DNA from: a virus
Length of the DNA stretch: 35,029 bases
IMG/VR virus record: IMGVR_UViG_3300022745_000106
Span: 1-35,029 of that record
Strand: one strand, 5' to 3'
The translations under genes were made by a program, and so were the position numbers. Below, piece after piece: positions 16,874 through 31,108 of the stretch (its first letter is position 1; the number at the start of each line of letters is the position of its first letter). The notes below the pieces were generated by a model, which saw nothing but the letters and a program-made list of their open reading frames with translations, searched no databases and was not told the origin of the DNA.

Positions 16874-17229
16874 TATGAGAACCCCACTTCAATGTTGTGG
16901 AGTGTTCCGTCAGTGTCATAGTTCCGACTGATTGACGCGAGTGGACGCTGAGGCCAGTTAGCGGGAGAAGTCACGATGATTTGATCTTTCTCGTCAATGT
17001 CCACCGGAACTGTGCCACCGATAGGAATAGCCTTGATGTAGGCCACGTTTTGCATCGAGATATTTACGCCACCCGCATTTGACGTTTTCGTTTCTCGCAC
17101 CGTGAGCAAGCATTTGTAGACACGAGAGTTTGAGCCAACCGTGTCACGACCGTATTTGTCCTTGCCTGCAAAACTCGTCACCGTGATTCGGTGAAGCATG
17201 AGTTCATCAAACTCGTCACCGATTGCCAT
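16873..17229 (-). CDS. Head-tail stopper (head closure) protein
   Basis: A 118-aa, beta-rich protein between the adaptor and the gp10-like gene. It begins with a short helix (IGDEFDELMLHRITVTS) and continues with strands (DTVGSNSRVYKCLLTVRE; VAYIKAIPIGGTVPVDIDEKD; QIIVTSPANWPQRPLASISRN), a pattern common to stopper proteins that close the portal channel after packaging. The YKCLLTVRE and DEKDQIIV segments are where small beta-barrel stoppers carry their conserved strands. Overlaps of 1 bp on both sides imply coupled translation. The call relies partly on position. Confidence 0.65.
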   Translation of the reverse strand: MAIGDEFDELMLHRITVTSFAGKDKYGRDTVGSNSRVYKCLLTVRETKTSNAGGVNISMQNVAYIKAIPIGGTVPVDIDEKDQIIVTSPANWPQRPLASISRNYDTDGTLHNIEVGFS

Positions 17230-17999
17230 TAGTCAGTCGCCCCCCATGTGTAAGAAGAAACGTTGGCGTTCAAAAGATTGCCTGCTGAGTCAATCGGTGC
17301 AGGGTAATCGAACTGACCAATGCCAAACATATGAGTGTCGGTGGTCTGAGTCATTTGCACCGTGAAACCAGTCTTACGACGGCGACGTTCACGGATTGAC
17401 TTTGCAAGATCGTAGTAACGCTGCGCCATTTGCCCGTGCATCAAACGCAACGGACCAACAACCTTGTCTTCCTTACCGCTGTATCGAGCGGCGATTTGTT
17501 CTGCAAGATTTGCAGCAGCAGCGTATGGCTCTTGTGCTGTCTCGGTGAGCAAGTAGTTAATCTCGCTGTCGCTGCAAAACGGAGCAGACATATCCGTGTC
17601 GCCCACCATGAAACGAACGGCGTCAATCTTCCTGGCAGATGGGTCACCGGAGTAAGTCGCATATCCCAGAGCAGGAGAAGTAATGAGCAGCGACATGAAA
17701 CCGTCGTTTGGAACTCTCAGATTCTTTGACCCCGTGTAGGTGAGGTCGAAGTAGGAAGCGTAAACACCGGCAGGGATTGTGGCAGTGTCCGTAGTCGTCC
17801 ACGCATATTGCAGAACGCCACTCGTTGCAGGGTTGACAATCGTTGCGTTTTGACGCAGTAGTTCGACCGGCGTTGTGGCAAGTGTCTGAATGACAAACTG
17901 AGCAGTTGCACCAGTCAAGTCAATGACGGTGCTCCCCTGCGAGGCTGTGCGCTGGACAATGGGGAGTTCATCGCCCTGCCGAATCACAATGTCAGCCAT
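17229..17999 (-). CDS. Head-tail adaptor fused to a BppU-like beta domain
   Basis: A 256-aa protein that appears to be a fusion. Residues 1-110 have the pattern of the immunoglobulin-like domain of BppU-type baseplate proteins (GDELPIVQRTASQG, DLTGATAQFVIQ, IPAGVYASYFDLTYTGSKN). Residues ~117-215 look like a gp6-type connector: GDPSARKIDAVRFMVGDTD, then SDSEINYLLTETAQEPYAAAANLAEQIA, then a helix ending in RERRRRK. The adaptor part would bind the underside of the portal and start the neck. The beta domain could decorate the collar. The gene follows the repeat protein by 2 bp. The adaptor assignment is stronger than that of the fused domain. Confidence 0.65.
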   Translation of the reverse strand: MADIVIRQGDELPIVQRTASQGSTVIDLTGATAQFVIQTLATTPVELLRQNATIVNPATSGVLQYAWTTTDTATIPAGVYASYFDLTYTGSKNLRVPNDGFMSLLITSPALGYATYSGDPSARKIDAVRFMVGDTDMSAPFCSDSEINYLLTETAQEPYAAAANLAEQIAARYSGKEDKVVGPLRLMHGQMAQRYYDLAKSIRERRRRKTGFTVQMTQTTDTHMFGIGQFDYPAPIDSAGNLLNANVSSYTWGATD

Positions 18000-18001
18000 G
18001 A

Positions 18002-19876
18002 CTACTCTCCATCCACAATCGTTGCTGCCCCAGAAGTGCTAACACGGTTCGAATCTCCTGCCGCTCTGACTCTGGTTATACCACTTGACGCCACTCGATC
18101 ATCGGAACTCTTCACTGCTGAAACGTCAGTTTTTGCTCCAACACCGTGAACTCGGATGAGCGTGGCATCCATATAAGGCAAGTTCATGTGCCCTGTAAAG
18201 AGTGCAGCGAAGTTCGGTACAACAGGGATTGGGTCACCCGTTGAGGTAATCGTTCCCGCTTGCTGAGAAATGACGGCAGAAATAATAGGAAGTACCGAGA
18301 TAACTAGACCGCCACCAGAAACCACGCCCTGCTGTGCGCCGGTAACCGTGTCCCTACCAGGAATGACGTGGGTAGTGATTCCACTCGGAGTGACAACCCC
18401 TACTGTCCCCGTCGTCACCGTTGTCGAACCAGGAATGACCGGCGTTACGTCAACAACAACAGTGACGGTTCCACTTTGAACACCAACGACGAGTTGCTGA
18501 TTTGGCACAACTGCGACGGGTGCATCAGTGGGTGCAACGGCTCCTTGTTGCTGACCAGTCACCGTATCCGTATTGGGGATGCGAGGAGTGGGAACGCCAA
18601 CAGGAGAAATGGAGCCTACTTGTTGCCCCGCTACCGCCGTAGAGCCTGGAACGACGGTAACGGGGAGTCCAGTGGGAGCAACGGTTCCGTTTGTGGGGTT
18701 GCTCGATACGCCATTGACACTAGTGCTGTTTGGAATAACAACGATAGGTGCATCAGCAGCAGTGACAACGCCTTGTTGAATACCAAGAACAGTTGCCGCA
18801 TTGTCAAAGACTGGAACTGGCTCACCAACAGGAGCAACGGTTCCCTGCGATTGACCAGTTGCAGTAGTCGAGTTCGGTTGAACGGCTACTGGAATCCCAA
18901 CAGGGGACACCGTTCCGTTTGTGACAGTGCTACCAGTCGCGGTTGTTTGGTTCGGGATGACTGGAACATCAAGGCCGACCGGAGAAACTGTTCCCTGCTG
19001 AACAGCGATTACTGTTGTTGAAGCGTCAATGACAGAAATCGGTAGGCCGCTCGATGTGACTACACCTTGCAGGATTCCGAGCACATTTGTGGTGCTGTCA
19101 ATGACCGGAACAGGAATGCCGATCGCACTGACCGTTCCAGCGTTTTGTCCTACCGCAGAAGTTGTTCCACCTTCGACAAAAACTGGAAGGCCGGTAGGCG
19201 TAACAGTTCCATTTGTCGGGCTAGAAGAAACTCCCGTTGCACTAGTCGAGCCAGGAATAACTGCAATCGGGGCATCGGTGGGGCTGACAATGCCTTGTTG
19301 CAGGGCCAAAACGGTGTCTGTGGCGGGTTGAACGTGTACGGGTGTCCCTGTGGGAGCAACCGTGCCCTGAGACTGTCCTACGGCCCCTGAAACCGCTGGC
19401 TCGACCGGAATGACGATTCCAGTAGGAGTTACCGTTCCCTGCTGTCTTCCGACAGAAGTTGTTTGACCAGGAATAACCGGAACATCTACGCCGGTAACAG
19501 TTATTGTCCCTGCGCCCTGACCGACCGCGTTTGTCGAACTCGGGTCAACAAAAACTGGCAGACCAGTGACGGTTACTGTGCCTTGCTGCAACCCCGTGGC
19601 GGTAGTGGCATTTGGCTCTACCGCGATAACAATCCCTGTCGGCGTAACTGTGCCGTTTGTTGCGCCACTGCTGACACCCGTAACCGTTGTCGAGTTCGGA
19701 ATGACAGAAACAACTTCGCCAACCGGAGTGACGGTTCCAGAGACAGAAGTTGATTGTGGCAAAACCCACTGACCAACAACGGCCTTCGCGTTAGTGGTGG
19801 GGCTGAAAGTTCCAACCGGAAAGAAGACGGCATCAAGATCAAATGGTGTGATTCGGTTGCCAAGAGGTAGCGCCAT
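18002..19876 (-). CDS. Repeat-built virion protein (about 21 units of 24 aa)
   Basis: A 624-aa protein made mostly of a repeat. After an N-terminal segment of 46 residues, residues ~47-565 hold about 21 consecutive units with the consensus GTVxPxGxPVxVxPxSTxxxGxQQ. Most are 24 residues; three are 28 (units 1, 7, 14) and one is 26 (unit 11). The last 59 residues are different and charged (LPYMDATLIRVHGVGAKTDV...). There are no cysteines and almost no aromatic residues in the repeats, which suits a beta-helix or fibrous shaft. It lies between the 270/272-aa paralogues and the adaptor gene, so I infer a head fibre, collar whisker or long decoration protein. I recognise no named family. Confidence 0.7.
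   Translation of the reverse strand: MALPLGNRITPFDLDAVFFPVGTFSPTTNAKAVVGQWVLPQSTSVSGTVTPVGEVVSVIPNSTTVTGVSSGATNGTVTPTGIVIAVEPNATTATGLQQGTVTVTGLPVFVDPSSTNAVGQGAGTITVTGVDVPVIPGQTTSVGRQQGTVTPTGIVIPVEPAVSGAVGQSQGTVAPTGTPVHVQPATDTVLALQQGIVSPTDAPIAVIPGSTSATGVSSSPTNGTVTPTGLPVFVEGGTTSAVGQNAGTVSAIGIPVPVIDSTTNVLGILQGVVTSSGLPISVIDASTTVIAVQQGTVSPVGLDVPVIPNQTTATGSTVTNGTVSPVGIPVAVQPNSTTATGQSQGTVAPVGEPVPVFDNAATVLGIQQGVVTAADAPIVVIPNSTSVNGVSSNPTNGTVAPTGLPVTVVPGSTAVAGQQVGSISPVGVPTPRIPNTDTVTGQQQGAVAPTDAPVAVVPNQQLVVGVQSGTVTVVVDVTPVIPGSTTVTTGTVGVVTPSGITTHVIPGRDTVTGAQQGVVSGGGLVISVLPIISAVISQQAGTITSTGDPIPVVPNFAALFTGHMNLPYMDATLIRVHGVGAKTDVSAVKSSDDRVASSGITRVRAAGDSNRVSTSGAATIVDGE
18185..19738 (-). repeat. Tandem coding repeat, ~72-bp period
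   Basis: This part of the 624-aa gene encodes the ~21 degenerate units. The period is 72 bp, with 84-bp units at the 1st, 7th and 14th places. Units have diverged enough that the DNA is not a simple satellite, yet the frame is kept throughout. Confidence 0.8.
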
Positions 19877-19883
19877 TGTGGGC

Positions 19884-20702
19884 CTACCCGTTAGCGATTT
19901 CTAAAGAAAAGTCCGTAATGCCAGTAGAAGTCGAGTCTGCATTGTAAACAAAAAGCAATGCGGAAGTGTCATACACAATCGGCATACCAGTAACGCCAGG
20001 GCCGTGATTGGGGAGGATGGGAATAGTACCCTCACCGACCATTGCCCTACCACTCCACAAGCGGCGACCAACACAAAAGTTAACAACGCCAGTTGTAGCA
20101 ACAGTTCCACCGACAATGACTGACTCCAACTTTTGAATACCCGAATCGCCAGAGGCAAGTTGGTACTGCTGGCATCGGTGAAGAGTCAAACCACTATAAC
20201 TAGAAAGTTCTGCTGTTGCTGACTTTCCCGTTGTTCCCGCCTGATTTGTGTAAGTAACTGTGGCAGTAGTAGCAGTTGCCGATACAGCAGTAGTAACCCA
20301 TGAGAAAAGTTCAAGGTTTGAGTAATCAGTGTTGGGCACTCGCGCAGCGTATGAAGGCGGCGTGGTGATCGTCGTTGTGGCAAGCGCAGTAAGAGGGACG
20401 CTGACGGCGTAAAGAAGATCGTAAATCTTCACAAACCCCGCAACGCCAGGACCACCGTGTACTCGGGTGAGGTATCCAGTATTACCAGCACCGAAAGAGT
20501 CAATGGGAGGGAAGCCTGTAACGGCATCCGTAGGAACCTGACCAGGGGTTGTAGCGAATGCCGCAGTACCCGCAGCAGGGTCACCAGTTGTAGTGAAGTT
20601 GACAAAACTTCTTTGGGCAACAGTGGTAACAGAAGAGGTCTTGTACCACTTGATGATCTGCTTGGCTGCCGCAGCGTATTGAGCGCCCGTTGTGATAGCC
20701 AT
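19884..20702 (-). CDS. Virion structural protein, paralogue B, 272 aa
   Basis: A 272-aa beta-rich protein, one of two adjacent paralogues. Shared blocks include GNTGYLTRV (near residue 75), KIYDLLYAV, WVTTAVSATATT followed by YTNQAGTTG (near 135-155), SGDSG then KLESV, GGTVATTGVVNFCV and the final DFSLEIANG. I do not recognise a named family. Proteins of this look in actinophages are virion-associated, so a capsid or collar accessory is inferred from position between capsid and connector genes. It begins on the stop of its paralogue (TAATG, 1-bp overlap) and ends 7 bp before the repeat protein gene. Confidence 0.65.
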   Translation of the reverse strand: MAITTGAQYAAAAKQIIKWYKTSSVTTVAQRSFVNFTTTGDPAAGTAAFATTPGQVPTDAVTGFPPIDSFGAGNTGYLTRVHGGPGVAGFVKIYDLLYAVSVPLTALATTTITTPPSYAARVPNTDYSNLELFSWVTTAVSATATTATVTYTNQAGTTGKSATAELSSYSGLTLHRCQQYQLASGDSGIQKLESVIVGGTVATTGVVNFCVGRRLWSGRAMVGEGTIPILPNHGPGVTGMPIVYDTSALLFVYNADSTSTGITDFSLEIANG

Positions 20703-21514
20703 TACCCGTTCGCAATCTCTATCTGGAAATCAGAAATACCACCAGCAGTGGAGTCGGGAACGGTTGTAATGAAAAGTGCAGAAGTGTCAAACACCTGCGG
20801 CATACCAGTCTTGTCAATCGTGTCAGCAACAGCAGCGTTTGTCAGAGGAAACCTGCCTTGCCACAATGGTCGAACAACGCACACGTTCACTACACCAGTA
20901 GTCGCCACGGTTCCACCGACCGTCACGGACTCGATTTTCTGAACACCACTGTCACCAGATTGAAGAGAAATCGGCACAATGCGGTGGATTGAAAAACCAG
21001 ACAATGACGAGGTTGTGGCAGATGCTCGACCAGTTGTGCCTGCTTGGTTCGTGTAGTTCACCTGCAACGTGGTAGCCGTCGCTGACACTGCGGTTGTAAC
21101 CCACGCAATGATGGACAGATTAGAAAAGTCTGTTCCACCAGGAACACGAGCAGAGTAAGACGGCTGACCACTTAGGGTATTTGTGGCAAGTGTAAGAAGA
21201 GAAATATTGACACCAAAAAGAATGTCGTAAATCTTCATTCTTCCGATTTGCCCATACCCACCCATGACACGAGTGAGGTAGCCGGTATTGCCACCACCAA
21301 AAGTGTTAATCGGTGGATACCCTGCAACCGTATCGTCAATGATTTGTCCAGTTGGCGTACCAGTGAAGACAACGGATGCAGGCGCACCAGGGTTACCTGG
21401 AAGTTGCACAGTGGCAAACTCAGTAGCCGCAACGGTAGTAACGAAGGTTGGCTTTTGATAAGTAATAAGTTGCTTCGTTGCAGCAATGTACCCATCGCTC
21501 GTGGTGATTGCCAT
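20702..21514 (-). CDS. Virion structural protein, paralogue A, 270 aa
   Basis: A 270-aa partner of the 272-aa protein downstream. Both start MAITT, share GNTGYLTRV, WVTTAVSATATT, NYTNQAGTTG or YTNQAGTTG, SGDSG and GGTVATTGVVN, and end in EIANG, so a tandem duplication is clear from the protein alignment. The most divergent parts are the N-terminal ~60 residues and the stretch around 215-245. The shared fold is probably a beta sandwich, with one Cys in GVVNVCVVRPLW. Function unknown; virion component inferred from its place between the capsid and neck genes. Confidence 0.65.
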   Translation of the reverse strand: MAITTSDGYIAATKQLITYQKPTFVTTVAATEFATVQLPGNPGAPASVVFTGTPTGQIIDDTVAGYPPINTFGGGNTGYLTRVMGGYGQIGRMKIYDILFGVNISLLTLATNTLSGQPSYSARVPGGTDFSNLSIIAWVTTAVSATATTLQVNYTNQAGTTGRASATTSSLSGFSIHRIVPISLQSGDSGVQKIESVTVGGTVATTGVVNVCVVRPLWQGRFPLTNAAVADTIDKTGMPQVFDTSALFITTVPDSTAGGISDFQIEIANG

Positions 21515-21526
21515 ACAGCATCACCC

Positions 21527-22183
21527 TTACGAGGCAGGAACCCAGAAGATCGGGTTGGGCGAGGTCACGGTCATGGTTCCACCGTTGTTTGCGGTCTGCG
21601 GAGTACCGGAGTAATCCACGTAGCACAGAACGGGGTTTGTCGCGGCAGTACCAGGAGTCGAGTCGTAGTAAACCGCGTAGTACGAAGTGAAACCAGTCGT
21701 CACAGAAGTCCATGCGGGAGTGGTCGCAGTAAGGGCCGTGATCGCTGAACCAATATTCAGCCACGTCACCGTACCGTCAGTGACCGTTGCGCCAACAGTG
21801 GTCGGCCAAGTCGGAGCAGCACCACCAGACGTGCCACCCACTGTGGCAACGTACAAGAAGCCGTTGCCAGCAGCAGGACGAACAACCGTACCGACCGTGT
21901 ACGCAGTAGTGACCGCAGCAGCAGTACCCCACGAGTTAGCGGCAGTGGTGGCCCATGCCTGACCAGTAAGCGTGTTTCCACCAGCGGTGTATCCACCAGC
22001 AGTGGTTAGTTCGGTGTTGACCGCAACAACGTCCGAAACGAACTGCGCGGTCTGAACTAGAGAGGCAATCGAAGTGACGTTTGCAAGCAACATGCACTTC
22101 AAAGTGTCAGTGCCAAGATTCGCAAGTTTCTGACCAAGCGAAAGACTTGCCTTGGCGAAGATGTGCTGAGTGCCAGTTGCCAT
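21527..22183 (-). CDS. Virion protein with surface-binding-type beta module, 218 aa
   Basis: A 218-aa protein whose centre (residues ~90-150) holds a small motif widespread in phage tail and head fibres: VGTVVRPAAGNGFLYVATV, then GGTSGGAAPTWP, then TVTDGTVTWLNIG. This module usually forms a compact beta domain that exposes a binding loop. The N-terminal ~85 residues (KASLSLGQKLANLGTDTLKCML) and the C-terminal part (FTSYYAVYYDSTPGT ... GTMTVTSPNPIFWVP) flank it. The full layout matches proteins seen in many phages near virion genes, with no proven activity. A role as capsid or collar decoration is inference. A 12-bp gap separates it from the next gene. Confidence 0.6.
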   Translation of the reverse strand: MATGTQHIFAKASLSLGQKLANLGTDTLKCMLLANVTSIASLVQTAQFVSDVVAVNTELTTAGGYTAGGNTLTGQAWATTAANSWGTAAAVTTAYTVGTVVRPAAGNGFLYVATVGGTSGGAAPTWPTTVGATVTDGTVTWLNIGSAITALTATTPAWTSVTTGFTSYYAVYYDSTPGTAATNPVLCYVDYSGTPQTANNGGTMTVTSPNPIFWVPAS

Positions 22184-22195
22184 GATTTCCTACTT

Positions 22196-22525
22196 TCAGG
22201 AGAAGTTGGCGAGGACAGCAACGGTAGTCGTTGCAGTTGCCACTACTGAACGCACACGGTAGAACGGCGCGCGGATTGGGAAAGTCTTCACGACGTTCTT
22301 TGTCGTGCTGATGGTAGTAAGAGCGTCAGGAGTTTCCGTGTCGAAGAAAGTAGTGCCGTCAAATGACCACTGAACGTCAACAGTCACCGTTCCAGTAGTA
22401 ACGGTTGCACTCACGCCGATAGAAAGATTGACCGCGTTTTCCAGAACAGAGAAAAATGGAGAAGTCACCGTTCCAACGTTTTGTGGTGCGGAGGCGATAA
22501 CGGTGACGTTCTTTGGATTCGACAC
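22196..22525 (-). CDS. Small beta-rich virion protein, 109 aa
   Basis: A 109-aa protein made of alternating hydrophobic strands rich in Thr and Val (NLSIGVSATVTTGTVTVDVQW; FDGTTFFDTETPDAL; FYRVRSVVATATTTVAVLANFS). It has no cysteines and no membrane helix. It is the first gene after the intrinsic terminator hairpin and begins the set of accessory virion genes. The fold resembles small decoration proteins, but I do not recognise the family. Confidence 0.6.
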   Translation of the reverse strand: MSNPKNVTVIASAPQNVGTVTSPFFSVLENAVNLSIGVSATVTTGTVTVDVQWSFDGTTFFDTETPDALTTISTTKNVVKTFPIRAPFYRVRSVVATATTTVAVLANFS

Positions 22526-23391: not shown

Positions 23392-24393
23392 TTAGGAAAC
23401 AGCGGTGGCGAACCAAGTACCGAGTTCAGGAGCGGTGACCTTGAACGCGTATGCCGCTTCGATTTCGATGCGGTCAGACGCAAGGTTTTCCATGCGGTAC
23501 TTCTTGACTCGTCCACCCCAGGCGTTTGCACCCGCGTAACCCTGCCACGCGAAGCAGTAGCCAGCCGAAGGAGTCGTGCGCGATGGGTTCGGTGCTGCAT
23601 AACCCATGAGCATTGACTTACCAGCGAGGAACGCGGTGGTCGGGGCCATGTCAGCCACCAACTCTTCATCCGTGTTCGTGGACTGGATGCCGCGAGCGAC
23701 GTAGATGTTGTCAATACCAATCGCGGTGGCGATGATATCTTCGTTCAGGAATCCAGGCTGCGTGTACTGAACACGAGCGACGATTTCTGAGTGGTCAACA
23801 ATCGCGTCCCAAACGTTCGGCCCCATGAGGACGAAGTTCGGCTTCAAGCCAGTGCGGAGACGGTAGCGCAAGATCGCCTTGCGGAACGTGCTCATCGGGC
23901 TTGAACCAGCCTGATCGAACTGGATGAACTGCGTGCCAGTCGGAGCAGAGGCAACACCAGTGACAACTTCGCCACCAGTTGACCATGCGGTGCTGACAAA
24001 GAACGTGTTCAGGAACTCAAGTTCACGACGGAGCATGGTCTGTTCCGTGATGAGTCGAGTACCAGCCTCGTCCAACGTGAACGTGTCGTCCTTGTTGCTG
24101 CGCGCCTGATCTTCAACGTCAATGTGAAGACCAAAGACCTCGGCGTAGTAAGTGTCACGCGTGAACGTCCACTCAACGCCAGGAGTCTCAGTGCCAGGAG
24201 CACGGCGAGCACTCTGCGTCTGCAAGAATGCACGACGACCGAACTTGTAGAAGTAGTCCGTCTGGAAGTCAACGGGCAGGATGGGGAAAATCTTCGTCGC
24301 AACGAAGTTTGCATCCTGTTCCTGTGAGTAGGCGATTGCGACAGTCGAGAGTTCCCGATTGACGTGCAGATCACCAGGAGTAATGTTTGGCAT
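23392..24393 (-). CDS. Major capsid protein
   Basis: A 333-aa protein following the protease, scaffold-like and decoration genes. It resembles the lambda gpE-like branch of HK97-fold capsid proteins: an N-terminal arm (AIAYSQEQDANFVATKIFPILPV), then VDFQTDYFYKF, a helix-rich segment with DEAGTRLITEQTMLRRELEFLNTFF (residues ~115-140), and LRTGLKPNFVLMGPNVWDAIVDH (~185-205). A late segment typical of the family follows (KKYRMENLASDRIEIEAAYAFKVTAPELG). Its first residues, MPNITPGDLHV, are nearly the same as those of the 964-aa protein. A good ribosome-binding site (AGAAGGG) precedes ATG 24393. It should form the icosahedral shell. Confidence 0.85.
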   Translation of the reverse strand: MPNITPGDLHVNRELSTVAIAYSQEQDANFVATKIFPILPVDFQTDYFYKFGRRAFLQTQSARRAPGTETPGVEWTFTRDTYYAEVFGLHIDVEDQARSNKDDTFTLDEAGTRLITEQTMLRRELEFLNTFFVSTAWSTGGEVVTGVASAPTGTQFIQFDQAGSSPMSTFRKAILRYRLRTGLKPNFVLMGPNVWDAIVDHSEIVARVQYTQPGFLNEDIIATAIGIDNIYVARGIQSTNTDEELVADMAPTTAFLAGKSMLMGYAAPNPSRTTPSAGYCFAWQGYAGANAWGGRVKKYRMENLASDRIEIEAAYAFKVTAPELGTWFATAVS

Positions 24394-24820: not shown

Positions 24821-26098
24821 TCAGGCGGTCTGACTGTCGCGGAGTGTGGGGTCAGACTTCATCAAGTGGACCTCGGCCTGCTCGATGGTCTTGAACTGTC
24901 CCTTTTCGACCAGTTCAGCAGCGGCCTTGGCGCGCTTCTCAACGACAGTGAGGACTTCGCCCTCACCTGGCTTACCAAAGGACTTCATCACGCCAGATGC
25001 CTTGGCGTTTTCGTTCGCAGCGGTGAGCGTGTCAATCATGGCGTTGTACGCCGTCTCGTCACTGCTCAGAGTGCGAAGACTCTTTGCAAGGGCCTCCTTG
25101 TCACCAGGAACGTGAGTGAACGACTCAGCGATGCTCTGGTACTTGGCAACCTCGTTGTCCTCAACGACCTTTGCGGCGTTCTTGACAATCTCGGCAACCT
25201 TCGGGTCGAGACCCTTGAAAATGTCTTCCTGCGAAGACACGCCTGCGGCACTTTCCAACTCACCGATGTACTTGGCAACGTCGGTTGGAATATCGAGGCC
25301 GTCAAGCGCGGTGGGGCGAGTTGGTGCTGACATGACTCCACCTTCCGTGGCTGACTTAAACAACTCTGACAGTTCTGAACGAACAGCAGATGCCTTGTTC
25401 CCCGCGTCTTTTGCAACGGGGGTTTTTCCTGCGAACCACTTTGTAACTTCCGTGTCCATGAGGGTGTTGAAGTTCACCATCGTGGCCTCGTAGTCAGTGG
25501 CGGAACTCTTTGAAACGTCACCCGAGAAAATCTCGGTGATTGACTTGGCGAACTCAACCGCGTGACTGGCAACCTCAACTGCAATGCTGCCGGTTTCCGT
25601 GGGAGTGTAGTTCTTCTTCACGACCGGAATATCGGAATCTTCGTCCGACTCATCCTCGTCGTCTTCGCCTTCGTCATCATCTTCGTCTTCGCTGCCGTCG
25701 TCCTCTTCATCCTCTTCATCGGAGAAGTCAACGTCGTCAGGGTCATCCCCTTCGCTGTCTGCGCCGTCCTCGGGAGTCCCCTCCACCGCAGCATCCAGAT
25801 CGGCGTCCGTCGCGTCATCCGGCAAGGCTTCCTTGCGAACAATGATGAGCGACTTCTTGATGTTCTCGCTGCCGCACTTCGCGCAATGCGAGTCTTGGCG
25901 GTCAACCTTTGCGCCACAGTCAGCGCAAGTGCGGTCGCCCATTTTCTTTTCGACAACCTCTCGGGTCTTCACTGCGCCTCCTGGCTTTTGCTTCAACAAA
26001 GCGATTCTGGCTCCACGGTTGTCGCCAGCGTCAACAAATGAAACACCGTTGTACGACATACGTGAGAGACGAGTTCGCTTATTCACGCCACTCATCAT
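24821..26098 (-). CDS. Zinc-ribbon and acidic scaffold-like protein
   Basis: A 425-aa protein with three parts. The N-terminus (NKRTRLSRMSYNGVSFVDAG) leads to a zinc-ribbon with Cys58, Cys61, Cys72 and Cys75 (CADC ... CAKC). Then comes an extremely acidic run at about 105-160 (Asp/Glu/Ser only, e.g. DFSDEEDEEDDGSEDEDDD). The remaining ~260 residues are helical, with heptad-like sequence near the end (VVEKRAKAAAELVEKGQF). The acidic, helical character and its place between the prohead protease and the capsid gene fit a scaffolding protein, removed during maturation. The zinc ribbon is not usual for scaffolds. It overlaps the protease gene by 4 bp (ATGA). Confidence 0.6.
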   Translation of the reverse strand: MMSGVNKRTRLSRMSYNGVSFVDAGDNRGARIALLKQKPGGAVKTREVVEKKMGDRTCADCGAKVDRQDSHCAKCGSENIKKSLIIVRKEALPDDATDADLDAAVEGTPEDGADSEGDDPDDVDFSDEEDEEDDGSEDEDDDEGEDDEDESDEDSDIPVVKKNYTPTETGSIAVEVASHAVEFAKSITEIFSGDVSKSSATDYEATMVNFNTLMDTEVTKWFAGKTPVAKDAGNKASAVRSELSELFKSATEGGVMSAPTRPTALDGLDIPTDVAKYIGELESAAGVSSQEDIFKGLDPKVAEIVKNAAKVVEDNEVAKYQSIAESFTHVPGDKEALAKSLRTLSSDETAYNAMIDTLTAANENAKASGVMKSFGKPGEGEVLTVVEKRAKAAAELVEKGQFKTIEQAEVHLMKSDPTLRDSQTA

Positions 26099-28002
26099 GC
26101 CTCCACTACGGTTCGGTATCCAGTTCCCTCGACAGAAAACATCGGGTACTTACCACTCTTAATATCATGCCAAAGGGCGGAATCGTGGACTTTCAGCCCA
26201 ATCCACCAAGCGGCGTCGGGAAGGGATTCCTGAGGAATGCCCATTGCTGCCTTCTTTTCCTTCGTGATTGCGAAGGATTCAACCATTGTGGCAACGCCCT
26301 TTTTCAAGTGCATTAGCCCACCGTCACGGGATTGCAATGCGTAGTCATACGCCGCTTTCTCCACGTCTTCGGGGTTGTCAATGAAGTCACCTGAGTGGTC
26401 AGTTTGCACGTTGCCATTTGCGTCAATAGCGAGCGTGGCGTAACCAAAGGCGATTTGCAAGTCATCGTCCCGCTTCTCGATCTTGAAACGGACTCCCTCT
26501 TGCTCTTCGTCAAACGCTGCCTTGTAGAAAGCAATGGCTTCTGCTGTTGGCATCGAGCGACTAGCGATTCGGTAGTTGACGAGTCGTGCTTCATTAAACG
26601 CCGCATTATGTGACTTGCCTCTGCGACGCAAAGACAGATACCGCTTGATTTGAGTGTTGTTCATATCAGTAAGAACCGAGTTCATTTGAATAGGGTTCAA
26701 ACCGAGAGATTCAAGGTCTGGGTGAGAGGCACGAGTAACAGCGTAGTAGTGGGCCATATCGCCAGTAAGTTGACGGTAGTTCGACTGATGACGCCACACC
26801 TTGCCCGTGTACCGACTCTTTCGGTTCGCCTCTGTTGCAAGAGCGATTTCCTGCTCATTCGGACTTGGGTTGAAACCAAGGGGTTTTAGGCGAGTGCCCT
26901 GTGACGGTAGTGACTTTGCCTTTACTGGCTTGCCACGGTTTGCTTTCAATGAAGCGGCAACGTCTTTTACAGAAACCTGTGTCTGAGTGTCAAGGTGGCC
27001 CATGTTGTTGTCAGCACGCCAACGTTGCTGGCGCTCAATGGTGTATAGGACTTCGTAAGCAATGCGCCTTTCCTTGTCATTTCTACTTAACTTCACATGC
27101 TTTGATGCAAGGGCACGAAGTTCAGACAGTTGGTTTTTGTCGAGTTTGTTAAACTTTTCGAACTGCTTTTCCCACGACATAGCGGTAATACCAGCCAGCA
27201 GTTTGCGCTCCGATGTAAGTTTGTCGCCTTTGTAGCCATACAGAGCATCCAACATGGTCTGCGCGTCTGTGTGTGCGGATACTTGGGAAGCAGTAAACGG
27301 CTTCTTACTGCGACCACGCTTTGAGTCAGCAATGACCTTATTGGGAACAGCAACCTTTTTGCCGTTCACCGTGGCAGTCTTTGAACCCCTTGAACTACCC
27401 CGAATCGGCTTGGGGTCATGCGCGAGGTGTCGCTGCAATGCCGCCTTCGCTGCACTCTTTGTCGAGTACGTCTTGATTGGGGTTTGCTTTCCGTCCACAA
27501 ACAATCCGTGGCGACCGTCCTGCAACTCCCAGACTCCCGCTTTCTGGTGCTGAGATTTTGAACCGGCCTTAATCCACCGTCCGTGCCACCCGCGAAGTTC
27601 GTTCGACACGTCCCAATGGGCTTTGCTGACGGGAGTACCGTCCAACTCTCCAAGAAGACCGGCGATTTCTTCGTCGGTCAGGTGAAGGCGCTTCCCCTTA
27701 GAGACGTGCGCTTTCACTTTCTTGGCCTCCCAATCCGCAATAGCGGCACATGCTTCGGCTTGATGCTGTGGCTTGACGTGCTGAATCCCGTGGTAGTTCA
27801 AGTCACCTGTACCACACATTCGGCGGCAAGCGTTGACCGCAACCGCAATGGCGTGTCCGATTTCCATTCCCTTTTCGTAATGCAAGTGCTTGGCGATGCG
27901 CTCGATATACGAGGGAAGTCCACCGGCATTCTCGACCCAGTTATCGTGCTTTCCTGGGGAACGCTCCAATGACGGGAGTGCTTTTGAGTCCACCATTGTC
28001 AT
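26095..28002 (-). CDS. Prohead protease polyprotein (XkdF / peptidase S78_2-like C-terminus)
   Basis: A 635-aa multidomain protein. Residues ~18-98 form a helical domain common in actinophage proteins (DNWVENAGGLPSYIERIAKHL, AIAVAVNACRRM, EACAAIADWEAKK). Residues ~128-192 carry the HWDVSNELRGWHGRWIK motif followed by HGLFVDGKQTPIKTYSTKS. The middle (~200-500) is charged and unassigned. The C-terminal 131 residues match XkdF-type prohead proteases: QIAFGYATLAID, DHSGDFID, EKAAYDYALQSRDGGLMH (His565), ATMVESFAITKEK, WWIGLKV and the MFSVEG serine (Ser623). The enzyme should process scaffold and capsid proteins. The start at 28002 overlaps the previous stop (ATGA); 27996 is an alternative. Confidence 0.75.
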   Translation of the reverse strand: MTMVDSKALPSLERSPGKHDNWVENAGGLPSYIERIAKHLHYEKGMEIGHAIAVAVNACRRMCGTGDLNYHGIQHVKPQHQAEACAAIADWEAKKVKAHVSKGKRLHLTDEEIAGLLGELDGTPVSKAHWDVSNELRGWHGRWIKAGSKSQHQKAGVWELQDGRHGLFVDGKQTPIKTYSTKSAAKAALQRHLAHDPKPIRGSSRGSKTATVNGKKVAVPNKVIADSKRGRSKKPFTASQVSAHTDAQTMLDALYGYKGDKLTSERKLLAGITAMSWEKQFEKFNKLDKNQLSELRALASKHVKLSRNDKERRIAYEVLYTIERQQRWRADNNMGHLDTQTQVSVKDVAASLKANRGKPVKAKSLPSQGTRLKPLGFNPSPNEQEIALATEANRKSRYTGKVWRHQSNYRQLTGDMAHYYAVTRASHPDLESLGLNPIQMNSVLTDMNNTQIKRYLSLRRRGKSHNAAFNEARLVNYRIASRSMPTAEAIAFYKAAFDEEQEGVRFKIEKRDDDLQIAFGYATLAIDANGNVQTDHSGDFIDNPEDVEKAAYDYALQSRDGGLMHLKKGVATMVESFAITKEKKAAMGIPQESLPDAAWWIGLKVHDSALWHDIKSGKYPMFSVEGTGYRTVVEA

Positions 28003-28217
28003 CCCCGCCTTGGGTGATAGGGCTTAACGGATTCTTTTACCACTGACCAGTTATCCACGTCATCTGTCACAACATACGCGGTAAAAGGCTCCACGCCAAG
28101 AATAGGGTTACCGGAAACGGTGTGTTCCGAATAGATGCCCACCACCCGCTTTGGGTCATTGCCTTCTCCCGCGAGCGTGACAGCACTAACGGTGTCTCCT
28201 GGCTTGACGGTCATCAC
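27999..28217 (-). CDS. Hypothetical protein, 72 aa
   Basis: A 72-aa protein translated between the two large multidomain genes, with ATGA overlaps at both ends. It reads like a small beta-barrel of the type that follows phage head proteins (MTVKPGDTVSAVTLAGEGN, KRVVGIYSEHTVSGN, AYVVTDDVDNWSVVKE) and ends in a basic YHPRRG. The family is not recognised. The double overlap and clean reading frame make it a real gene. Confidence 0.6.
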   Translation of the reverse strand: MMTVKPGDTVSAVTLAGEGNDPKRVVGIYSEHTVSGNPILGVEPFTAYVVTDDVDNWSVVKESVKPYHPRRG

Positions 28218-31108
28218 TTGCCCCTTCGACCCTTGGCGCGGCGCAGTTGGGCTGCGTAAAGCCCTCCCACGTTGTCCTTTGCCATGATGCGACGGTAGGA
28301 CGCGGGACTCATTACGTCGCGCAACTTCACGATATTGACGAGCACTTGTTCTAGGTATAGATGGGCGTTCTCAGCGTCGCCAATGGCCTTTTGTCCCCAA
28401 GCCCTGTTGCAATCCTTGTGAGACGGCGCGAGATTACCCTTCACGTCGTACCGTCCACCACCCTTGGCAGGATTCAACTTCTCTAGTTCGAAGTTGGATA
28501 CAGAGTAGATTCGACGTGCCTTAGCGGTACTCATGCAGTGAACGCAGACCACGTAGGGCTTTCCGTTTTCGTCAATCTGTTGCCAATCTTCAAAAACTTG
28601 CGCCTTACGCTTTCTCTGCCCGCTAGAGTTCAGTCGAGCAATGCCACGTACTTTTTCTCGCTGTGCAGCACGGCGCTCATCACTGACGTTTGGCGACTTG
28701 TATCCAGTACCAAGTTTCTTGCGAATGTCACCAATAACCGTTACGCGGTCCTTGAAGGCAACAGAACCATCTAACTGTGACACGACGCGGAACTTTTTCC
28801 TGTCCTCGGGGAACGTCATATCAAGAACCTTGGAGGGCTTTGCACTTCCTAGCAAGGCGATTTCTTCCTTGGTCGCCACGCTCGGGTTGTTGTAAATCTT
28901 TGCAAGTCTCGCGTTTGTGATTCGCCCCTTGCCCTTTTGCATACTACGAATGTAAGTAGCCTCGCCAGGGTCAAGGTAGTAGCCACCCTCTACGAGAAGC
29001 CGAGAAATGATGACCGTCCCGTTTGCCGTCTTGTTAGAAGCAGAATCGGGGCGTCCTACATGGGCGTATTCAGCGGGACTCAGAATCCCGTTGTCAATCG
29101 CACCGTTGAAAGGAACGCGCGGGTACTCAATGGAAAGATTGTTTGGCTTTCCAGGTACATGCTCATCGTGAACAATGTGCTTGCCGCTCTTTGGTGTACG
29201 AGTCCAGCGACCGCGCCAGTCACGAATCTCACTGGTAACGTCCCAATGCTTTTTGCGAATACGGTAGCGAGACTTTTGCAACTTTTCAGATGCCGTCTGA
29301 GCGCCACGTCCAACGGGCTTACGCCCACGGTAGTCTCGCACGTTTAAGTCTGCGGAAGGAATGCTGCTGATTCCCTTTGGCTGAAGGTGCTTCAGAAGTG
29401 CATTGTGCGCCTCGTGCTTAGACTTCCATGCTGGACGTACACGGACACCGTTGACATATACGTGGAAAACTCCTGGCTTCATGCGAACGATGAACGCATC
29501 ATGCTCGGGGTAACGCCAACCCTTAAACGGCTTCGCCCGTGGCTGTCCAACCTCGTAGGCAGGAATGTCAACAATGGGCGTAACCTTTTGCGGCGCAACA
29601 ATCGGACGGTACTTAGTTGGGTCCGAGTCTTCTTTTTGGCTTCTCAAAAGTGACTGGTCATTGTGATAGAACGCGTGCCAGTAGGTATCGGTGGGGTCGA
29701 ATCCCATTGACTCTGCCCAACGACCGGCCTCTTGACGCAAGCGAGCAACACGCTCTGCATTTGTTTCTTCACCCGCTGGTGGGAAGTAAATGCCGAGTTC
29801 CTTCTGACGCTCAATCTCTGCTGCCTTGGCTGCTTCCTGACGCGCTTTGTAAGCGTCTGCTGCTGCACGATCAGATGCTTGCTTGGCGTTGTGGCGTGCC
29901 TTGCGCTGCTCTGAACCTCGCACCATTGAGTCATGCTTCGCTTCGGTCACAACAGAAACGTCACCGTTGAAACTTACCTTGACGTACTTGCCACGGTTCG
30001 GACCCTTTGTTGCCTTGAACAAGATTCCGTCGTTGCGATCAGTCCGAGTAGAGATACCCGCATCCCAACCGCGAGCAGGAATACTAACGATCTGGTTTTC
30101 AATGGTGTAACGAACGCCTCGCTTTACCTCAACGATTTTTCCGTTTCGCTCAATGTATCCAGGGACGTTCTTTCCAGTCACCCGCTGATTGGTCAATCCA
30201 ATGCGCGAGATAGTCGTTGTCGTTTCCTTGTGCGGCACAGGGAAGATGACGTGAACACTGCGACCACCGTGACGCTTGACTTCCTCTTCCTGCGCTTTGG
30301 TGACAGTCGCACCAGAGTGACCGTGCCATGTGAGTTTGCGGCGCTGGCGTGAAGTAGGGATGAACTGCTTGGGGTACATGACCTCCTTCATCGCCTGTTC
30401 AACCGCTACCAAATCTTGAACACTGAGTCCCGTTTGCTGTGCGCGCTGCTCACGGTATTGCACAGAAATAGAACTCGGCTTTGCCGTACTGCTTTTCTTT
30501 CCGATTCTCAAAACAAACAAGGCATGTTCAAGATGCTTGTCGGTGAAGTATTTATGAGCGAACTCGTTTGCAGGACGAATATTCTCAACAAGCATCTGCG
30601 GGAACTCAGTGTGCGTTGCTGCGACTTGCGCGACCTTGACTCTGCCGCTACGTGGGTTCTTGGAGCGCGCTCGGAAGTTACCGTGGCTCTCTTCATGCAG
30701 TCGTCGCAAAGCGTTTTTGGCAGAACTTAACGACGTGTATTCCGCGACAGGAGTTTTACTGCCGTCTAGGTACAGACCGTGAACCTTACGAGTTACCCAA
30801 CGCCCCGTTGTCTTGTCGTATTCAAGCGGTGTTGTGTCACCCGTGTAAGGGTCAGCGTTGGGGATGACCTTGCCAGTCCTGCGATTGACCTTTGGCTTAC
30901 CAGGAGTTGCGTCCCGAGTAAAGACCGCAGCAGTTCTATTGGGGCCGTGTGAACCCAACTTAATCCACCGACCATGCCAACCACGCGGGTGAAGTTCCTC
31001 GCTCCACTTTGCTTTGAGGACTAGTGCCTTCTTTTTGCGCTTGCGTCGCTTGCTCTCCGTGCCAACTTCCGCTGGAACGTGCAAGTCATCAGGGGTCACG
31101 TTTGGCAT
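28214..31108 (-). CDS. 964-aa multidomain head-region protein with degenerate HNH-like end
   Basis: A 964-aa protein with no single family match. Residues 1-11 (MPNVTPDDLHV) match the start of the capsid protein. Residues 35-50 are WSEELHPRGWHGRWIK, followed by a HGLYLDGSKTPVAEYTSLSS segment at ~109-130. A coiled-coil-like Lys/Ala/Glu stretch lies near 410-450. A related GVFHVYVNGVRVRPAW segment occurs in the middle, followed by a second KHWDVTSEIRDWRGRW motif. The C-terminus has Cys855, Cys858, His897 and Cys900 (CVHC ... NLAPSHKDCNRAWG), the metal site and last motif of HNH nucleases. The Asp-His normally found in the first motif is replaced by Glu876-Lys877. It may therefore bind zinc without cutting. 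It sits 1 bp after the MuF-like gene and overlaps the next gene by 4 bp. Confidence 0.65.
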   Translation of the reverse strand: MPNVTPDDLHVPAEVGTESKRRKRKKKALVLKAKWSEELHPRGWHGRWIKLGSHGPNRTAAVFTRDATPGKPKVNRRTGKVIPNADPYTGDTTPLEYDKTTGRWVTRKVHGLYLDGSKTPVAEYTSLSSAKNALRRLHEESHGNFRARSKNPRSGRVKVAQVAATHTEFPQMLVENIRPANEFAHKYFTDKHLEHALFVLRIGKKSSTAKPSSISVQYREQRAQQTGLSVQDLVAVEQAMKEVMYPKQFIPTSRQRRKLTWHGHSGATVTKAQEEEVKRHGGRSVHVIFPVPHKETTTTISRIGLTNQRVTGKNVPGYIERNGKIVEVKRGVRYTIENQIVSIPARGWDAGISTRTDRNDGILFKATKGPNRGKYVKVSFNGDVSVVTEAKHDSMVRGSEQRKARHNAKQASDRAAADAYKARQEAAKAAEIERQKELGIYFPPAGEETNAERVARLRQEAGRWAESMGFDPTDTYWHAFYHNDQSLLRSQKEDSDPTKYRPIVAPQKVTPIVDIPAYEVGQPRAKPFKGWRYPEHDAFIVRMKPGVFHVYVNGVRVRPAWKSKHEAHNALLKHLQPKGISSIPSADLNVRDYRGRKPVGRGAQTASEKLQKSRYRIRKKHWDVTSEIRDWRGRWTRTPKSGKHIVHDEHVPGKPNNLSIEYPRVPFNGAIDNGILSPAEYAHVGRPDSASNKTANGTVIISRLLVEGGYYLDPGEATYIRSMQKGKGRITNARLAKIYNNPSVATKEEIALLGSAKPSKVLDMTFPEDRKKFRVVSQLDGSVAFKDRVTVIGDIRKKLGTGYKSPNVSDERRAAQREKVRGIARLNSSGQRKRKAQVFEDWQQIDENGKPYVVCVHCMSTAKARRIYSVSNFELEKLNPAKGGGRYDVKGNLAPSHKDCNRAWGQKAIGDAENAHLYLEQVLVNIVKLRDVMSPASYRRIMAKDNVGGLYAAQLRRAKGRRGK

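Follow-up and report, generated by a model that had tools for sequence, protein, structure and literature searches.

A tandem-repeat protein encoded between head and neck genes as the candidate shaft of a virion-surface fiber with a recurrent partner family

REP is a real, strongly repetitive gene, and its product is quite probably a fiber or other appendage of the virion. On balance, we favor the more specific reading that it is the shaft of a virion-surface fiber that would work with two partner proteins, A1 and A2, and may be docked at the neck. Because the same pairing of partner and repeat protein recurs in dozens of viruses with ever-changing sequence, comparison of these genes points to an exchangeable surface fiber for gripping host cells. 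The DNA analyzed, referred to here as the window, is a virus fragment of 35,029 bases that makes up IMG/VR record IMGVR_UViG_3300022745_000106. A first-pass annotation of these bases had proposed a fibrous head or collar appendage; an appendage is also our best reading, given the recurrent pair, the head and neck neighbors, the corresponding slot of cultured Arthrobacter phages, and the enzyme domains of relatives, and the earlier interpretation is partly supported.

The repeat array of REP consists of 20 clear units and a degenerate 21st, mostly of 24 residues (Table 1), and the autocorrelation of the protein at lag 24 lies ~16 SD above residue shuffles. Tandem Repeats Finder missed the repeat at the DNA level. 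Within the unit, G1 is invariant and V3, G7, V12, and P14 are nearly so. The first-pass description of the array held: the repeat is real and occupies the span given, 28-residue units sit at places 1, 7, and 14 (unit 11 has 26 residues), and the array is cysteine-free and nearly aromatic-free, with no C, W, Y, K, or M and five F. REP as a whole is rich in V, T, G, and P, and no signal peptide is obvious by eye. Its spacing is that of a structural operon, with a gap of 7 nt after A2 and of 2 nt before the adaptor gene, and scans for promoters and terminators did no better than shuffles.

Table 1. Positions of REP, its repeat units, and neighboring genes in the window
Feature	Position	Strand	Remark
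Head-tail adaptor, Ad1 type (residues 115-203), with N-terminal BppU_N-like domain	17229..17999	-	putative docking site
REP, repeat protein gene	18002..19876	-	ORF and translation, 624 aa
REP C-terminal nonrepeat segment, residues 565-624	18005..18184	-	putative tip, from position only
Array, 21 units of 24-28 residues, residues 47-564	18185..19738	-	
Unit 14, 28 residues	18689..18772	-	tail GVSSNPTN
Unit 7, 28 residues	19211..19294	-	tail GVSSSPTN
Unit 1, 28 residues	19655..19738	-	tail GVSSGATN
REP N-terminal nonrepeat segment, residues 1-46	19739..19876	-	putative anchor, from position only
A2, partner protein, 272 aa, jelly-roll-like beta-sandwich	19884..20702	-	57% identical to A1
A1, partner protein, 270 aa, paralog of A2	20702..21514	-	
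218-aa phrog_644-type protein	21527..22183	-	phrog_20658-like stretch inside
109-aa beta-rich protein	22196..22525	-	weak match to C-terminal part of phrog_9522; module role uncertain
Major capsid protein (phrog_1005)	23392..24393	-	upstream border of inserted cassette

Two further claims, that units 6 to 8 resemble units 13 to 15 more than their neighbors and that blocks of about seven units were duplicated, stood only in part. These two triples are indeed the best matching (47 of 76 residues), but unit 8 has a closer match in unit 3 than in unit 15. In tests picked after the pattern had been pointed out, the permutation p for the triples was 0.028 for protein but 0.125 for DNA, and that for a lag of 7 across the whole array was 0.04 and 0.14, respectively; comparison restricted to 20-residue cores of the units gave nothing significant. 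Codon usage predicts a third-base identity of 0.289 at shared four-fold residues, and the observed value is 0.305. The third bases are thus saturated, so any block duplication must be old. An old seven-unit duplication is possible, on weak support.

Family scans against Pfam and PHROGs returned no match to REP, including none by sequence or family to a head fiber of the phi29 gp8.5 type, and by sequence REP belongs to no head-fiber family tested. A search of phages and IMG/VR for close homologs, of which the BLAST low-complexity filter may hide some, found only a second IMG/VR contig that is identical across 12,290 bases and holds the sole other copy of REP, itself identical. A monomer model of the shaft, made from a three-row alignment, has a pLDDT of 33, too low to bear on a beta-helix (the fold suggested earlier), triple beta-spiral, or beta-bracelet, and neither supports nor excludes an oligomeric fiber. 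That alignment was drawn from REP's own blocks, three of which were used for the model; MAFFT had shifted overlapping fragments.

The larger result concerns the setting of REP. The AlphaFold model of A2 is a confident beta-sandwich (pLDDT 90.7, pTM 0.90), and an alignment of A1 and A2 recovered 80 IMG/VR loci (217 candidates confirmed), with 258 confirmed in a second scan for the family. A scan of genome contigs found two loci only, one each in MAGs of Polaromonas and of Campylobacterota. Among cultured phages, Rhodobacter phage RcZahn (gp40 and gp41), Roseobacter phage CRP-6 (gp57 and gp56), and Pseudanabaena phage PA-SR01 have genes of the module. None of 79 family members matched PHROGs (E up to 0.01), the 79 gave isolated nonsignificant matches in Pfam, and the family profile had no sequence match in the PDB. 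The PDB folds nearest to the partner model are jelly rolls at Z ~5, a background level; the best of them include 8cjz, 3j4u, and 7eel, none clearly above background. In BFVD, seven uncharacterized phage proteins resemble the partner, with TM-scores of ~0.6 to 0.8. A literature search with limited reach into subscription journals found no paper describing the partner-repeat module, which is widespread and apparently undescribed.

In the window, REP lies directly downstream of an A-family gene on the same strand and has a repeat period of 24 (z ~16). We asked how often this arrangement recurs by scoring the gene that immediately follows the final partner gene, if at least 150 aa long, against other same-strand genes, with obvious duplicates among the loci removed. 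A tandem-repeat protein occupied this position in 33 of 43 cases, versus 9 of 472 other genes (odds ratio, 170; p = 6e-35), and 46 previously unseen loci replicated the result (23/34 versus 7/284; p = 7e-21), both p values being optimistic because some loci within each set remain related. Most of 53 repeat proteins have a period of 20 to 24 residues and their sequences are unrelated; therefore, the length per repeat is kept and the sequence is not. The repeat proteins downstream of the partner in IMG/VR contigs thus share gene order and period with the window, whereas their sequences are unrelated to the window repeat beyond a V/T/G pattern. The N terminus of REP resembles those of other repeat proteins by eye, not significantly, and a profile of nine such N termini, built in search of a shared anchor, misses REP and drifts into the partner family.

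Between close relatives, whole repeats have been gained or lost. The partners of L122 and L139 are 100% identical, and their repeat proteins, of 383 and 276 aa, are ~five repeats apart with conserved ends. L062 and L065 also have identical partners, and their repeat proteins differ by one clean internal gap of 27 residues, again with conserved ends. Between L083 and L092, the partners are 92% identical and the repeat proteins 32% identical. The earlier expectation that copy number varies is therefore borne out among relatives of the module, while for REP itself the only other copy found is identical.

Some loci carry, instead of the repeat protein, a protein of 61 to 68 residues with an N-terminal RRLFDGA-like motif and repeated xVxGxWK. 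More broadly, in many phages the partner genes are followed by a protein of 61 to 82 residues with two or three W-containing motifs (xVxGxWK or KVWxGSAWV) and by no long repeat protein; examples are L045:9478-9663, further loci (L058, L063, L074, L075, L081, L082, and L088), and RcPescado gp14. A short protein with KVWxGSAWV repeats is also the last gene of the homologous block of the RcD cluster, genes 10 to 14 (PMC8601537). The short W-motif protein is perhaps a minimal version of the repeat component. Two large proteins were seen near other modules: a 1597-residue protein with a 22-residue period (z 30) close to a partner gene on a 106-kb viral contig (L117:11067-15857), and a 2016-aa DarB-like antirestriction or methyltransferase-helicase protein directly after a partner-repeat module (L038:10775-16822).

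The minus strand of the window encodes terminase, portal, head morphogenesis, protease, scaffold-like, cement, and major capsid (MCP) proteins; these are followed by several extra genes and, beyond them, by the genes for adaptor, closure, neck, and tail. REP had been described as lying between head and neck genes, and this is so, with the MCP upstream and the adaptor downstream. The nearest relatives of the MCP, at ~33 to 40% identity, are in Rhizobium, Microbacterium, Pseudomonas, and Roseobacter phages; capsid-based recruitment of relatives in IMG/VR found nothing. Among the extra genes, the 218-aa protein contains an inserted stretch (~residues 77 to 143) that matches phrog_20658 (head decoration) and phrog_30112, and phrog_644 genes often lie upstream of the partner gene at other loci. 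An RGWHGRWIK-type motif is common to large head-region proteins at 28214-31108 and 26095-28002, twice in a 964-aa protein and once in the protease-bearing one; the 964-aa protein also has a weak HNH match close to its C terminus.

Annotated relatives have few genes between MCP and adaptor, and often just a single small acidic one. Arthrobacter phages, whose adaptor homologs sit before the head-to-tail stopper, place large appendage-type proteins between MCP and adaptor, and we thus regard this slot as a site that takes appendage genes. The slot proteins are 767 aa long in phages Ottawa (gp102) and Kovu (gp31), and that of LiSara (gp27) is of fiber type, with Ala-rich and collagen-like stretches. 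All three resemble the window in having the same MCP family, the same adaptor, and the same slot, but LiSara gp27 differs from REP in being without 24-residue units and without a partner-family match; it matched no solved structure by sequence. LiSara gp28 is a paralog of the C-terminal half of gp27 (35% identity; L177:2144-4669), and the slot is an unusual location for tail-fiber-type genes.

The adaptor adjoining REP weakly matches the N-terminal domain of lactococcal phage BppU (BppU_N, PF10651; 17.0 bits, E = 0.0048, below the Pfam gathering score of 23.1 bits), and a phrog_1084 match to its N-terminal half (E = 1.3e-5) speaks for a related domain there. The remainder matches phrog_1732 (E = 5.7e-19), which, with its position after the MCP and before the closure gene, assigns it to the Ad1 type. 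BppU is a baseplate protein, whereas the domain in the window is fused to a head-tail adaptor. In Roseobacter phage CRP-6, the two halves are separate proteins, gp50 for the adaptor (E = 1.5e-10) and gp56 for the BppU_N-like domain (E = 9e-8). CRP-6 gp56 directly follows gp57, a repeat protein that is like the module in gene order but has a period of 46, and no partner was detected among the CRP-6 genes tested. The BppU_N-like domain also comes right after the repeat gene in L024 and L068. Apart from the identical contig, phages and IMG/VR yielded no second adaptor fusion; elsewhere, the adaptor half alone matches. From these few cases, we infer that the BppU_N-like domain may hold the fiber and that the fusion would move the fiber to the neck.

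Under our preferred explanation, the N-terminal segment of REP would anchor the fiber, and the repeats would form a thin, beta-structured, and probably oligomeric shaft whose length would be set by the number of units. The C-terminal end would be the tip, which in some relatives may be a polysaccharide-active enzyme. Of the possible docking points, the likeliest is the head-tail neck, where the BppU_N-like part of the adaptor, whose gene lies 2 nt beyond REP, would hold the fiber; collar fibers of this kind could attach the particle to polysaccharide on the host surface ahead of tail binding. If REP is a fiber, we tentatively place it at the neck; the capsid surface is a less likely location, and the distal tail is the least likely of the three. 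In favor of the preferred explanation are the partner-then-repeat order, the conserved period, the differences by whole repeats beside identical partners, the head and neck neighbors, the Arthrobacter slot, the enzyme domains of relatives, the BppU_N-like domain right after repeat genes, and the RcZahn partner gene that follows distal tail genes. Several points weigh against it, namely, the shaft pLDDT of 33, the partner Z of ~5, the many unnamed neighbors, the tail genes near five loci, the gene placement in RcD phages, the unmatched N terminus of REP, and the single case of the fusion.

The best-surviving alternative, which we consider unlikely, is a head fiber of the capsid surface: A1 and A2 would be jelly-roll decorations of the shell from which REP projects, and the neck would be uninvolved. 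The order of genes in L071 (MCP, phrog_644, partner, repeat, adaptor) agrees with this, as does that in L020, where the MCP comes shortly before the partner (MCP, one gene, partner, repeat, adaptor). It could also account for the jelly-roll-like partner and for the phrog_20658 match within the 218-aa protein. The partner's fold matches do include phage capsid decoration and cement proteins, but at background level, and the BppU_N-like domain is carried by the adaptor in the window. A capsid location also fits poorly with cultured Rhodobacter phage RcZahn, in which the partner gene follows distal tail genes.

The RcZahn order would instead suit an accessory tail fiber or tail tip protein whose gene merely lies among head genes in the window, which we judge to be improbable. 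It would gain from CRP-6, where gp57 and gp56 come after a run of tail-fiber and fiber-assembly genes, and from L058, L074, L088, and L089, where baseplate genes are four away. However, the window cassette lies between MCP and adaptor, apart from the tail-tip genes, and named neighbors are head genes in a larger share of loci: a named head or neck gene is at most four genes away in 18 of 69 loci and a named tail gene in five, most neighbor genes of the module being unnamed. The module loci span at least five MCP families and at least eight portal families.

A role outside the particle, as a released or cell-surface late protein that, for example, binds or modifies host polysaccharide after lysis, is very improbable. 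Enzyme domains in relatives are compatible with it. In phage genome ctCJ8213, an alginate lyase domain (E = 1.3e-18) forms the C-terminal end of the repeat protein, and at L043, the protein encoded after the partner contains a BD-FAE esterase-like domain (E = 5e-10). Also compatible is the proximity of the partner gene to replication genes in Rhodobacter phages of the RcD cluster. The tight structural-operon spacing, the recurrent location among head, neck, and tail genes, and the lack of an obvious signal peptide argue for a particle protein instead. Finally, a low-complexity reading frame without protein function, as the composition might suggest, deserves next to no credence, since it is contradicted by the conservation of the module, as well as by conserved amino-acid units with third bases at codon-usage expectation, the operon position, and the recurrence of this kind of gene at an equivalent position across many unrelated viruses.

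Joining these strands, we speculate that the module is a widespread, undescribed appendage system in which a jelly-roll-like base carries a hypervariable shaft built on a 20- to 24-residue rung. It would travel as a cassette among unrelated structural modules, change its length by whole repeats, and in the window be reattached to the neck by the adaptor fusion. Two large groups of environmental phage proteins, almost all of them now annotated as "hypothetical," gain from this work a function that can be tested. The repeat proteins also provide a natural series of fiber shafts that vary in the number and sequence of their units beside a constant partner protein. If confirmed, it would reveal a general way to swap host-gripping fibers with head and tail unchanged, and the partner family would be a handle for finding more of them.

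Known particle-surface proteins provide partial parallels. The fiber of Orsay virus CP-delta is made of beta-bracelet repeats (PMC7565637) and, as a thin shaft of short repeated beta segments, is like the structure proposed for REP, although Orsay virus infects nematodes and is no relative of the window virus. The decoration proteins phi29 gp8.5, T4 Hoc, T5 pb10, and SPP1 gp12 are adhesive and are thought to aid binding to cell-surface carbohydrate (PMC7602432). Like the proposed fiber, phi29 gp8.5, whose type attaches to the capsid at quasi-threefold sites, is an accessory particle-surface protein with a base and an elongated shaft. Its beta-tulip base and helical supercoil shaft are parts of one chain, whereas the jelly-roll-like partner and the 24-residue, presumably beta-type repeat of the window are separate genes with no sequence match to it. 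No RcGTA chain is among the partner fold matches listed, which decides nothing on homology. As PMC6854486 describes them, citing Westbye 2016, the RcGTA head spikes GhsA and GhsB are needed to bind the host polysaccharide capsule, and as a surface structure encoded by two genes they are a parallel to the proposed fiber.
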